Assembly (NCBI RefSeq): GCF_947495735.1
Contig: NZ_CANMAA010000004.1
Location: 62,001 to 126,000 of the forward strand
From: an uncultured Pseudokineococcus sp.
Lineage (GTDB): Bacteria; Actinomycetota; Actinomycetes; Actinomycetales; Quadrisphaeraceae
Direction: 5' to 3'
Length of the DNA: 64,000 bases
Below are positions 9,205-28,981 of this stretch, in pieces. The notes beneath the pieces are model-generated. The model did no database searches and had not been told where the DNA came from. It was given only the letters and a program-made list of their open reading frames with translations. Every line of letters starts with the position of its first letter. The first letter of the stretch is position 1. The position numbers and the translations under genes are program-made.

Positions 9205-10197
9205 TCAGCCGCGCTGGGCGGCCCGCTCCCGCCGGCCGCTCACGAGCAGGGACACCGCGGCCGTCGTCCCGAGGATGACGACGATCGCCGACAGCGAGAG
9301 CCAGATGGGCACCTCGGGCGCCCACTCGACGTGCTCGCCGCCGTTGAGGAACGGCAGCGTGTTCTCGTGCAGCGCCTCGAGGATGAGCTTGACGCCGACG
9401 AAGGCGAGCAGGACGGCCAGGCCGATGTCGAGGTAGATCAGCTTCTTCAGCAGGTCGCCGACGAGGAAGAAGAGCTGGCGCAGCCCCATCAGCGCGAAGA
9501 GGTTGGCCGTCAGCACGATGTAGGGCTCGCTGGTGAGCCCGAAGATCGCCGGGATCGAGTCGAGCGCGAAGAGCAGGTCCGTCGTCCCGAGCGCCACGAG
9601 CACGAGGAGCATCGGGGTGACGGCGCGCCGTCCGCCGTCGGAGACCACGAGGGTCGTCCCGCGGTAGTCGGGCGTGACGGGCACCACCCGGCGCACGAGC
9701 CCGACGAGGCGGTTCTCGGTGAACTCCTCCTCCGCATCGTGGCCGGAGCCCCGCACCAGGTTCACGGCGGTGAGGAGCAGGAAGGCGCCGAAGAGGAAGA
9801 ACACCCAGCTGAAGGCCGAGATGAGCGTGGCGCCGACGGCGATCACGACGGCGCGCAGGACCAGCGCCAGCACGATGCCGATGAGCAGCGCGTTCTGCTG
9901 CAGCTCCCGCGGGACGGCGAAGCGCCGGAAGATCAGCAGGAAGATGAACAGGTTGTCGACCGAGAGCGAGTACTCGGTGAGCCAGCCGGCGTAGAACTCC
10001 CCCGCCGCCTGGCCGCCGGCGAACCACCACAGCCCCAGGCCGAAGAGCACGGCCGCGCCGACGAACCCCGCGAGGTGCGTCGCGCTCTCCCGCGTGCTCG
10101 GCACGTGCGGGCGGGCGCGGCTGTGCAGCACGTCGGCGGTGAGGAAGAGCACCGCCGCGACGATCGTCGCGGCCCAGAGCCAGCCCGGGACGCTCAC
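9205..10197 (-). CDS. TerC-family integral membrane protein, second paralog
   Basis: 330-aa TerC/Alx-family membrane protein, a family associated with tellurite resistance and, in characterised members, Mn2+ export that helps metalation of exported proteins. Hydrophobic helices run through the protein. The family motifs EYSLSVDNLFIF and DLLFALDSIPAIFGLT carry the conserved membrane acidic residues expected to bind metal. The GTG start at 10197 overlaps the stop of the upstream terC paralog (GTGA), so it is co-translated from the riboswitch-controlled transcript. It is shorter than its partner because it lacks the acidic/Ser-rich C-terminal tail. The substrate is inferred from the family and the upstream manganese riboswitch. 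Confidence 0.93.
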   Translation of the reverse strand: MSVPGWLWAATIVAAVLFLTADVLHSRARPHVPSTRESATHLAGFVGAAVLFGLGLWWFAGGQAAGEFYAGWLTEYSLSVDNLFIFLLIFRRFAVPRELQQNALLIGIVLALVLRAVVIAVGATLISAFSWVFFLFGAFLLLTAVNLVRGSGHDAEEEFTENRLVGLVRRVVPVTPDYRGTTLVVSDGGRRAVTPMLLVLVALGTTDLLFALDSIPAIFGLTSEPYIVLTANLFALMGLRQLFFLVGDLLKKLIYLDIGLAVLLAFVGVKLILEALHENTLPFLNGGEHVEWAPEVPIWLSLSAIVVILGTTAAVSLLVSGRRERAAQRG

Positions 10198-11333
10198 CCG
10201 GAGTGCCGGCCGCTACGGGTGCTGCCGCCGCTGGGCGCGTCGTCCGGCAGGTCGCTGAGCGCCCCGCCGTCGCGCTGGCCCTCACCCACCGGGCCGCGCG
10301 TCGGCGAGGGGGCGTCCTGCGGGCGCGCGGCGCCCGGCTCCTCGGCGCCCCGCTCCGCCGCCGCGCGCTTGTTCTCGCGCAGGGACAGGACCGTGGTGAT
10401 GCCGAGAGCCACGACGATGAAGAGCAGCGACAGCCAGGTGGGGATCTCCCAGACCGGCACGTGCTCACCCCCGTTGATGAAGGGCAGCTCGTTCTCGTGC
10501 AGGGCGTGCAGCAGGAGCTTGACGCCGATGAACGCGAGGATGGCGGCCAGGCCGTAGTGCAGGTAGACGAGGCGGTCGAGCAGCCCGTCGATGAGGAAGT
10601 ACAGCTGGCGGAGCCCCAGCAGGGAGAACGCGTTCGCCGTGAAGACGAGGTAGGGCTCCTGCGTCAGCCCGAAGATGGCCGGGATCGAGTCGACGGCGAA
10701 CAGCAGGTCGGCGCTGCCGATGGCGATCATCACCACGAGCAGGGGCGTCACGAGGCGCTTGCCGTCCAGCTTCACGGTGAACTTGTCGCCGTGGTACTCG
10801 TCCGTCGTCGGGAGCACGCGCTTGGCCAGGCGCAGGACGACGTTCTCCTTGAACTCGTCGTCGGCGTGCGAGTCGGTGCGCCCGGCCTTGGCCTGCGCGT
10901 ACGCGGTGTAGATGAGGAAGGCGCCGAAGATGTAGAAGACCCAGGCGAAGTTCTCGATCACGGCGGTGCCGAGGGCGATGAAGACGGTGCGGAAGACGAG
11001 CGCCAGCGCGATCCCGATGAGGAGCACCTTCTGCTGGTACTCCCGCGGCACCGCGAAGCCGCTCATGATCAGCACGAACACGAAGAGGTTGTCGATCGAC
11101 AGGCTCTTCTCCGTGATGTACCCGGCGAAGTACTCGCCGCCGTAGGTACTCCCGGTGAGCACGAGGACGCCGACGCCGAAGAGGACGGCGATCCCGATGT
11201 AGACGGAGGACCAGACGGCCGCTTCCTTGATGCTGGGGCTGTGCGGCGTGCGCACGTGCACGACGAAGTCGTAGGCGATCATCCCGATGATGCCGGCGAC
11301 GGTGACCGCCCACACCCAGATGGGCACGTCCAT
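10194..11333 (-). CDS. TerC-family integral membrane protein, first paralog
   Basis: 379-aa TerC/Alx-family protein, the probable manganese efflux/handling partner of the adjacent paralog. Motifs EKSLSIDNLFVFVLI and DLLFAVDSIPAIFGLT contain the conserved Asp residues in membrane helices. About 320 residues of membrane core are followed by a hydrophilic tail of ~50 residues rich in Gly, Ser, Asp and Pro. The ATG at 11333 has a strong GGAGG 6 nt upstream, and that GGAGG is the 3' arm of the riboswitch expression-platform hairpin. Two tandem TerC genes under one riboswitch may form a heteromer or serve different compartments, which is conjecture. Confidence 0.95.
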   Translation of the reverse strand: MDVPIWVWAVTVAGIIGMIAYDFVVHVRTPHSPSIKEAAVWSSVYIGIAVLFGVGVLVLTGSTYGGEYFAGYITEKSLSIDNLFVFVLIMSGFAVPREYQQKVLLIGIALALVFRTVFIALGTAVIENFAWVFYIFGAFLIYTAYAQAKAGRTDSHADDEFKENVVLRLAKRVLPTTDEYHGDKFTVKLDGKRLVTPLLVVMIAIGSADLLFAVDSIPAIFGLTQEPYLVFTANAFSLLGLRQLYFLIDGLLDRLVYLHYGLAAILAFIGVKLLLHALHENELPFINGGEHVPVWEIPTWLSLLFIVVALGITTVLSLRENKRAAAERGAEEPGAARPQDAPSPTRGPVGEGQRDGGALSDLPDDAPSGGSTRSGRHSG

Positions 11334-11339
11334 GAAGTT

Positions 11340-11478
11340 CCTCCGGTTGGCTGAGCTGCTCGACCGGAGGTCTCTCCCGCCCGACCGCTGCGCGGCCCGG
11401 ACCGACGGCCCCGGAGCTCCCCGGCGGACCGCGGGAGCGTCGTGTTGACGAGACCGCCGCGCAGGGATACTCCCCTCC
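11340..11478 (-). promoter_or_regulatory. yybP-ykoY manganese riboswitch with RBS-sequestering platform
   Basis: The minus-strand leader of terC matches the yybP-ykoY Mn2+ riboswitch. The conserved GGGGAGTA (ending 11468) follows the P1 5' strand GGAGG (11478-11474). The other end reads GAGACCTCC, with P1 3' strand CCTCC (11370-11366). Between them lie the GTCAACACG-type loop and the CGGGCGGGAGAGA region. Downstream, CCTCCGGT (11370-11363) is perfectly complementary to ACCGGAGG (11347-11340), which contains the terC Shine-Dalgarno. P1 and this hairpin compete for the same CCTCC strand. Metal-stabilised P1 should therefore free the RBS and turn translation on. The family assignment rests on consensus recall; the pairing is read directly. 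Confidence 0.93.
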
Positions 11479-11557
11479 TCGACGTTGAGGAGTATGCGGC
11501 CGGCGCCGGGGCTGCGCCAACCTGGCCCCTCCGGCGCGGCGGTCGGCCCGGGCGGCG

Positions 11558-13663
11558 TCAGCCCGTCGCGGCGTGCATGCCCCGGAGCTCCTTCTTCAGG
11601 TCGCCGATCTCGTCGCGCAGCCGCCCCGCCAGCTCGAACTGCAGCTCGGCGGCGGCGGCGTGCATCTGGTCGGTGAGCTGCTGGATGAGGTCGGACAGGT
11701 CGGCTGCCGGCATGGCCGCGAGGTTCCGGCGCTGCCCGTCCTCGCCGCCCCGCGAGGCCATGCCGGGCACCGGCGTCTTGCCGCGGGACTGCTGGCGCCC
11801 CGCCCCGCCGAGCAGCTCGGCCGTGTCGGCGTCCTCGCGGGCGAGCATGTCGGTGATGTCGCGGATCTTCTTGCGCAGGGCGGTGGGGGTGATGCCGTGC
11901 TCGCGGTTGTAGGCCACCTGCGTCTCCCGGCGCCGGTTGGTCTCGTCGATGGCCTGGGCCATCGACGGCGTGATCCGGTCGGCGTACATGTGCACCTGGC
12001 CGGAGACGTTGCGCGCCGCGCGCCCGATCGTCTGGATGAGCGAGGTGCCGCTGCGCAGGAAGCCCTCCTTGTCGGCGTCCAGGATGCTCACGAGGGACAC
12101 CTCCGGCAGGTCCAGGCCCTCGCGCAGGAGGTTGATGCCGACCAGGACGTCGAACTCGCCCTGCCGCAGCTCGCGGAGCAGCTCGACGCGGCGCAGGGTG
12201 TCGACCTCGGAGTGCAGGTAGCGCACCTGGACGCCGTGCTCGAGCAGGTAGTCGGTGAGGTCCTCGGCCATCTTCTTCGTGAGCGTCGTCACGAGGACCC
12301 GCTCGTCCTTCTCGGTGCGCCGGCGGATCTCCTCGAGCAGGTCGTCGATCTGGCCCTTCGTCGGCTTGACCACGACCTCGGGGTCGACCAGGCCGGTGGG
12401 CCGGATGATCTGCTCCACGTGCCCGTCCCCGCGGCCGAGCTCGTACTTGCCGGGGGTGGCCGACAGGTAGACCGTCTGCCCGATGCGCTCGAGGAACTCC
12501 TCCCACTTCAGCGGGCGGTTGTCCATGGCGCTCGGCAGGCGGAACCCGTGGTCGACGAGGGTGCGCTTGCGGGACATGTCTCCCTCGTACATCGCCCCGA
12601 TCTGCGGCACGGTGACGTGGCTCTCGTCGAGGACGAGCAGGAAGTCCTCGGGGAAGTAGTCGATCAGCGTGTTGGGGGCCGTCCCGCCCTCGCGCCCGTC
12701 GATGTGGCGCGAGTAGTTCTCGATACCCGAGCAGGAGCCGACCTGGCGCATCATCTCGATGTCGTAGGTGGTCCTCATCCTCAGCCGCTGGGCCTCCAGG
12801 AGCTTGCCCTGCTGCTCCATCTCGGCCAGCCGGGCGGCCAGCTCGGCCTCGATGGACCCGATGGCCCGCTCCATGCGCTCGGGCCCGGCCACGTAGTGGG
12901 TCGCGGGGAAGACGTACATCTCCTGCTCCTCCGCCACGACCTCCCCCGTCAGCGGGTTCAGCGTGTACAGCGACTCGATCTCGTCGCCGAAGAACTCGAT
13001 GCGCAGCGCGAGCTCCTCGTACACCGGGATGATCTCGACGGTGTCCCCGCGCGCGCGGAAGGTGCCGCGCGTGAAGGCCAGGTCGTTGCGCGTGTACTGC
13101 ATGCCGACGAACTTGCGGAGCAGCTCGTCGCGCTCGACCGTCTGCCCGACGTGCAGGCGCGCCATCCGGTCCACGTACTCCTGCGGGGTGCCCAGGCCGT
13201 AGATGCAGGAGACGGACGCGACCACCACGACGTCCCGGCGCGTCAGCAGGGAGTTCGTGGCCGAGTGCCGCAGGCGCTCGACCTCGTCGTTGATGGAGCT
13301 GTCCTTCTCGATGTAGGTGTCCGTCTGCGGGACGTACGCCTCGGGCTGGTAGTAGTCGTAGTAGGAGACGAAGTACTCGACCGCGTTGTTCGGCAGGAGC
13401 TCGCGGAACTCGTTGGCCAGCTGGGCCGCGAGGGTCTTGTTCGGCGCCATGACGAGCGTGGGCCGCTGCAGCTTCTCGATCATCCACGCCGTCGTCGCCG
13501 ACTTGCCGGTGCCGGTGGCGCCGAGCAGGACGACGTCCTTCTCCCCCGCCCGCACCCGCTGCTCCAGCTCGGCGATGGCCGTCGGCTGGTCCCCGCTCGG
13601 CGAGAACTCCGACACCACCGTGAAGGGGGCGACGCGTCGCTGGAGGTCGGTCACCGGTCTCAT
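11558..13663 (-). CDS. uvrB: UvrABC excinuclease subunit B
   Basis: Helicase-like damage-verification subunit of nucleotide excision repair, 701 aa, a normal length. Walker A is [10 protein letters not shown] near residue 45. The beta-hairpin that clamps one DNA strand is [12 protein letters not shown], and the DEAD-like box is LVLDESHVT. The helicase C-terminal motifs [12 protein letters not shown] and QTIGRAARN are intact. A C-terminal UVR domain ([15 protein letters not shown]) provides the UvrC contact. The ATG at 13663 is preceded by TACCGT 7 bp upstream with no Shine-Dalgarno, so a leaderless mRNA is likely. It sits between coaE and the terC pair on the same strand. Confidence 0.98.
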
Positions 13664-28907: not shown

Positions 28908-28981
28908 GCCCCGGTATCCCAACCGGCAGAGGAAGTGGCCTCAAAATCCACGCAGTGTGGGTTCGAGTCCCACCCGGGGCA
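28908..28981 (+). tRNA. tRNA-Leu(CAA), short variable arm
   Basis: 74-nt cloverleaf. The acceptor GCCCCGG/CCGGGGC is perfect (7 bp) with discriminator A28981. The T arm GTGGG-TTCGAGT-CCCAC is perfect. The anticodon loop CTCAAAA (28940-28946) has anticodon CAA, reading UUG. The anticodon stem GTGGC/TCCAC has one C-T mismatch next to the loop, and the D stem TCCC/AGGA has one C-A mismatch. The variable loop is only 5 nt (GCAGT), whereas Leu tRNAs normally have a long class II arm. CCA is not encoded. The identity follows from the anticodon; the missing long arm is the odd feature. It is divergent from pdtaR. Confidence 0.85.

Follow-up and report, generated by a model that had tools for sequence, protein, structure and literature searches.

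Crystallized members of the yybP-ykoY class of Mn2+ riboswitches contain a four-way junction, and in the Xanthomonas member Mn2+ is described as stabilizing the switch helix against strand invasion (PMC6754395). Targets reported elsewhere include TerC and mneA genes that follow a Mn-sensing riboswitch (PMC13274385), meeY (PMC10550928) and a Mn2+/Ca2+ ATPase. A leader of this class preceding an actinobacterial terC gene has already been annotated in Corynebacterium glutamicum (PMC3890552).

The DNA analysed here is a 64 000 nt stretch from an uncultured Pseudokineococcus sp. (the window), in which two genes with Pfam matches to the TerC family overlap (Table 1). The stop codon of terC1 and the GTG start codon of terC2 share the tetranucleotide GTGA, and no Shine-Dalgarno (SD) sequence of its own is evident for terC2, the translation of which would be coupled to that of terC1 through this overlap. 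The leader lies between terC1 and a gene (stop at 11558) that we take to be uvrB-like from its translation. All of the leader features and both terC genes are on the minus strand, which the preliminary description had not given. The nearest named contigs are those of Pseudokineococcus, to which the TerC of the window is 88% identical. A tRNA on the plus strand (28908-28981) is the sole Rfam match at gathering level in the window. Judged from sequence comparison, the leader is very probably a Mn2+ riboswitch of the yybP-ykoY class, in a P2-less form resembling that of Escherichia coli alx, which would act at the level of translation to switch terC1 and terC2 on.

Table 1. Positions in the window of the terC genes and of the elements of their leader.
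Feature	Positions	Strand	Basis or remark
terC1, 379 aa	10194..11333	-	Pfam PF03741, 176.6 bits
terC2, 330 aa, GTG start	9205..10197	-	Pfam PF03741, 159.2 bits
SD strand of the sequestering hairpin, ACCGGAGG	11340..11347	-	Sequence, covariation
Switch helix 3' strand (CCTCC, 11366-11370) and anti-SD strand, CCTCCGGT	11363..11370	-	Sequence, covariation
Whole aptamer	11363..11481	-	Covariance models R1 and R2
L1 loop 3' side, GAGA	11371..11374	-	Alignment
P1.2 3' strand, GGGA	11375..11378	-	Covariation test
Variable P4 hairpin region, putative	11379..11402	-	Length varies across the alignment
P3 3' strand	11403..11410	-	Covariation test
L3 loop 3' side, CGG	11411..11413	-	Alignment
Distal hairpin above L3	11414..11441	-	First three pairs covary
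L3 metal-sensing loop, TCGTCAACAC	11442..11451	-	Alignment
P3 5' strand	11452..11459	-	Covariation test
P1.2 5' strand, TCCC	11464..11467	-	Pairs with 11375-11378
L1 loop 5' side, GGAGTA	11468..11473	-	Invariant in the 55-row alignment, the rows of which were picked by a pattern requiring GGAGTA
Switch helix 5' strand, GGAGG (published name P1.1)	11474..11478	-	Read in sequence, alignment, covariation
CATACT, putative -10-like hexamer	11492..11497	-	Near the TANNNT peak of relatives; without the leading T

The ends of the aptamer, GGAGG/GGAGTA and GAGA/CCTCC, are present as the preliminary description had proposed, on the minus strand. The internal loop L1 (GGAGTA/GAGA) separates the switch helix from P1.2 as is usual for the class, and GGAGTA is also seen in phylum matches that were gathered without a pattern requiring it. 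Above P3, L3 carries both the proposed discriminator adenosine, within GUCA, and the GG of its 3' side; CGTCA and CGG of the window align with CGTCATTACG and CCGG of alx. By position, adenosine 11446 would correspond to the published A41/A48 (PMC6754395) and is thus the putative Mn2+ discriminator. The distal hairpin of the window has an unpaired C/C at its third position. P1.2 and L3 are 13 nt apart, within the 11-15 nt of most members, and since the P3 strand fills most of this stretch there is no room for a P2; judged by this spacing, the P2 and four-way junction of the crystallized members are absent from the window. The window element would therefore share the P2-less form of alx, presumably with a three-way junction; if alx is counted in the class, then the class can do without P2.

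Neither the individual strings nor the predicted stability distinguishes the element. Over both strands of the 64 kb CCTCCGGT occurs four times and GGGGAGTA twice, so that single strings are not rare, and the fold energy is unremarkable and weak evidence (z of -1.69, with ten of 200 shuffles equally good). The element stands above chance because it is conserved in place and covaries in relatives. The leader DNA matches all 13 family genomes at E <= 0.001, some of these matches being short stretches elsewhere, and both the order of the blocks upstream of terC and the position before Mn2+ export or TerC genes that is typical of the class recur in relatives.

For comparison, a collecting pattern returned 122 stretches, of which two were spurious and were dropped; the remaining 120 gave 72 non-redundant stretches, and 55 were aligned. 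As the pattern demanded GGAGTA and CGTCA, the conservation of these motifs among the 120 is in part a product of selection. With rows treated as unrelated and shared descent thus ignored, both here and in the anti-SD statistics below, standard pairs make up 94.7% of those of the named structure in the 55-row alignment (81.3% when shuffled), both sides have changed in 172 cells (54.8 when shuffled and at most 28 when slid) and the covariation score is 0.484 (0.229 when shuffled). There are 37 further pair types, a number reached by 19 of 500 shuffles. The number of pairs showing a change on both sides, 14, was reached by 82 of 500 shuffles and, unlike the other measures, is not exceptional. Within P1.2 both sides have changed at three of the four pairs, and TCCC/GGGA, CTCC/GGAG, TTCC/GGAA and CCCC/GGGG all occur. 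The switch helix shows such a change at one of its five pairs (GC to AU, in 13 rows), and all five pairs are standard in 174 of 198 distinct members.

The check put forward in the preliminary description, a search with the family covariance model, went against the proposal when taken literally. RF00080 returned nothing at the gathering cut-off in the window, nothing at E <= 10 in a 351 nt stretch and nothing at E <= 0.001 in the genome of origin; its gathering score is a curated threshold and not a structural feature. In the same order, seven of 149 genomes match RF00080 at E <= 0.001, none of them over the cut-off. A rescan of four of these seven loci (L001, L002, L003 and L006; those left out, L004, L005 and L007, have partial matches) gave full-length matches of 23-32 bits. 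The same element precedes the terC start in L001, L002 and L003, and three terC leaders from the order score 29-32 bits, below the cut-off. RF00080 alone was therefore rejected as a verdict, as homologues from the same order match it weakly and a better model exists.

Two covariance models were built, R1 from all 55 rows including the window and R2 from 47 rows after removal of the eight belonging to the family of the window. R1 gives 74.7 bits for the window, a score that is partly by construction, and 40.3 bits for alx. With R2 the window scores 71.0 bits, the other copy in the genome of origin 50.4 bits and alx, a member with a reported Mn2+ response, 39.9 bits; E. coli mntP has no match to R1 or R2 at E <= 1. 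At E <= 0.001, R1 matches 62 of 296 Actinomycetota genomes and RF00080 matches ten, one of them over its cut-off, both counts being lower bounds owing to strict filters. R1 recognizes ten of the 11 RF00080 places in the phylum, with 14-38 bits (E <= 1), and misses L231. The two sets differ, and R1 thus models one form and not the whole class. The detection of both the window and alx by R2, a model drawn from other families, together with the covariation of the aptamer, bears out the proposed family: sequence comparison supports the window element as a yybP-ykoY-class aptamer, probably of the P2-less, alx-like form. Membership of this family points to Mn2+ as the ligand.

The core of the proposed control is a choice of partner. 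CCTCCGGT, which includes the CCTCC of the switch helix, has two possible partners, GGAGG (11478-11474) and ACCGGAGG, and the two pairings are mutually exclusive. The complementarity to ACCGGAGG extends over all 8 nt and the SD strand is separated from the ATG at 11333 by 6 nt (11339-11334), as first noted from the sequence; the two strands enclose a 15 nt loop. To see how widely this arrangement is shared, 178 of the 198 members were scored (ten without a recognized gene, nine with a start more than 110 nt away and one without a GG were dropped). All eight positions form standard pairs in 92, seven in 46, six in 14 and fewer in 26. At least six of eight pairs form in 143 of 157 TerC leaders, five of 11 P-type ATPase leaders and four of ten GDT1 leaders; in the phylum set excluding GDT1, 52 of 81 could be scored and 35 reach six.

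The pairing also covaries. Across 65 distinct strand pairs of all target classes there are 362 Watson-Crick pairs, compared with 324.7 ± 6.3 after permutation, and none of 2000 permutations is as high as the observed count (maximum 351); the phylum matches alone, with 51 distinct strand pairs, give 272 compared with 243.8 ± 5.7 (maximum 265). Scoring required a final GG in the SD strand and preferred strands resembling GGAGG, which favours positions 1-3 by construction, and positions 4-8 alone give 184 pairs compared with 146.9 ± 6.5, above every permutation. In tests on 168 rows, from which all 13 GDT1 leaders were left out, sliding the SD strand lowered the proportion of standard pairs from 78.8% to at most 57.6% (56 distinct pairs), and the bases on the two strands were associated at position 4 (C/T with G/A; Fisher 2.4e-7) and at position 8 (T/C with A/G; 1.2e-8). 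Capture of the SD is therefore the rule before terC, and we limit this claim to terC leaders, the window among them. The exclusivity of the switch helix and the SD hairpin, claimed from the primary sequence, is visible there, and this hairpin covaries in relatives; the translational mechanism is well supported by the comparative evidence, and the ON direction and the coupling of terC2 are probable.

Folding calculations, in a model that ignores metal and tertiary contacts, place the minimum free energy (MFE) of the free state at -89.7 kcal/mol with the SD hairpin formed, compared with -80.7 kcal/mol when the switch and aptamer helices are forced; P1.2 and P3 coexist with the SD hairpin at -87.0 kcal/mol. 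The lower energy of the free state with the SD hairpin makes OFF the predicted default. In this state the SD bases are unpaired at most 2% of the time, and forcing the aptamer raises this to 58-66% at 11347-11345 and to 94% at 11340. Positions 11344-11341, which are held in a local 4 bp stem, are unpaired just 10-17% of the time even then, so that the freed SD is not predicted to be fully open. In the mechanism that we propose, CCTCCGGT would pair with ACCGGAGG at low Mn2+ and hide the SD of terC1. A rise in cytosolic Mn2+ would allow the ion to bridge L1 and L3, the GGAGG/CCTCC switch helix would be stabilized and CCTCC would be withdrawn from the SD, on which ribosomes could then load to make TerC1 and, by coupling, TerC2. 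The two proteins may export Mn2+, pass it to secreted enzymes or do both.

The preliminary description also raised the possibility that a CTCCTC/GAGGAG hairpin upstream competes with the switch helix, which would add a further layer of control. Both strands are present on the minus strand (11492-11487 and 11480-11475), and the hairpin forms part of the MFE structure of a stretch starting at 11500. Its relevance depends on where the transcript begins. A simple sigma-70 scan found no promoter here. Of the 198 members, 116 have a TANNNT motif that ends 5-20 nt upstream of the switch helix, compared with 12 at 21-36 nt and eight at 37-52 nt, and it falls within the 5-20 nt range in 61 of the 81 places of the phylum set. 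The looser [TC]ANNNT, which fits the CATACT of the window, gives 131, 29 and 31 for the same three ranges. CATACT is separated from the switch helix by 13 nt, a placement that would put the RNA start near 11485, downstream of CTCCTC, which is then probably not transcribed. In C. glutamicum the mapped terC start is reported to lie 6 nt inside the element predicted with Rfam (PMC3890552), which also argues against a transcribed hairpin. A 6 nt complement of the CTCCTC type is found in two of the 198 members (the window and L011), and a complement of the 5 nt switch strand within 30 nt upstream in four. The suggestion thus finds no support in the relatives; the hairpin probably lies outside the transcript, and a role for it in control is highly improbable.

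Transcriptional control, with intrinsic or Rho-dependent termination as the main output and SD pairing secondary, would have precedent in the Xanthomonas switch, which is described as transcriptional (PMC6754395), and, judged by eye, a T-tailed hairpin seems to capture the 3' strand of the switch helix in L227 and L230, two GDT1 leaders from Actinomycetota. Before terC1, however, there is no terminator-like site between 11300 and 11600, and the downstream strand that competes for CCTCCGGT is the SD itself, which covaries; we regard this alternative as unlikely. The alx riboswitch is also reported to respond to alkaline shock (PMC9603457), which might point to pH, or to a divalent ion other than Mn2+, as the chief signal. 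This is very unlikely given that the L3 core retains the proposed discriminator adenosine and that the targets recognized in the phylum are TerC, GDT1 and P-type ATPases. A Mn2+-responsive translational switch remains the reading that we favour.

The 81 places that R1 matches in the phylum were gathered without the GGAGTA/CGTCA pattern, and the next gene, sought up to 1.6 kb downstream on that strand, resembles TerC at 45 places, a P-type ATPase (labelled from sequence, without Pfam) at 13 and GDT1/UPF0016 at another 13; ten have no recognized target, three of these loci ending at contig ends. As R1 was trained on terC leaders alone, the ATPase and GDT1 targets were not built in. The second aptamer in the genome of the window (G000:C3:383318-383445, plus strand; L147:1501-1628) scores 50.2 bits with R1 and precedes a gene with a GDT1 match in Pfam (135.7 bits) and a likely GTG start at L147:1705. 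Its loop is GTCGACACAC, not CGTCANNAC, and the SD is paired less strongly, with six of eight pairs. This difference follows the target gene across the phylum matches: the loop GTCRACANAC occurs in 11 of 13 GDT1 leaders and in none of 45 TerC leaders, whereas CGTCANNAC occurs in 40 of 45 TerC, 12 of 13 P-type ATPase and one of 13 GDT1 leaders. E. coli mntP and alx show the same split. Two TerC leaders matched by RF00080 (L229 and L231) have the loop CGACANTACG, an intermediate form. Some Geodermatophilus, Blastococcus and Modestobacter loci hold additional terC-like genes, every one of which has a riboswitch copy to itself (L044:3441-3547 and L065:3737-3842 on the plus strand; L060:1599-1701 and L110:3384-3485 on the minus strand), on the opposite strand in two; the window, by contrast, has one switch for two overlapping terC genes. 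Tentatively, Actinomycetota might possess two tuned Mn2+ sensors, a P2-less form with the CGTCANNAC loop before P-type ATPase genes and before TerC, where SD capture would be the readout, and a form with the GTCRACANAC loop before GDT1-type exporters, mirroring alx and mntP and mostly overlooked by the current family model. If so, metal delivery and efflux would have different Mn2+ thresholds, set by the type of loop.

Taken on its own, the switch is expected biology and an ordinary member of its class. No description of the actinobacterial anti-SD form, or of loop subtypes that follow the target, was found in titles and the openings of abstracts, a survey that covered few subscription papers. 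The difference between the ten genomes matched by RF00080 and the 62 matched by the phylum-tuned model, out of 296, indicates that the regulation of TerC, GDT1 and P-type ATPase genes by Mn2+ is probably under-annotated in this phylum. In C. glutamicum, cg2157 (terC) likewise has an actinobacterial terC leader with a start mapped near its 5' end, but that leader was annotated with RF00080 at 49.13 bits using the then-current model (PMC3890552), whereas the window has no RF00080 match. The mntP leader shares with the window the GGGGAGTA and GAGACC ends, and differs in its GTCAACATAC loop and in the spacing from P1.2 to L3, which is 25 nt and in which a P2 hairpin is visible by eye. The likeness to alx is extensive: its leader has GGGGAGTA, the P1.2 stem, P3, the CGTCATTACG loop, CCGG and GTGAGACC, with 14 nt between P1.2 and L3 compared with 13 nt in the window, and a target that we take to belong to the TerC family. 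The alx leader is richer in AT, and the stretch read lacks a CCTCCGGT/ACCGGAGG hairpin ahead of the start of alx. The window element offers a case in which a probable ON mechanism can be read in the sequence and in which both competing helices covary in support of it.
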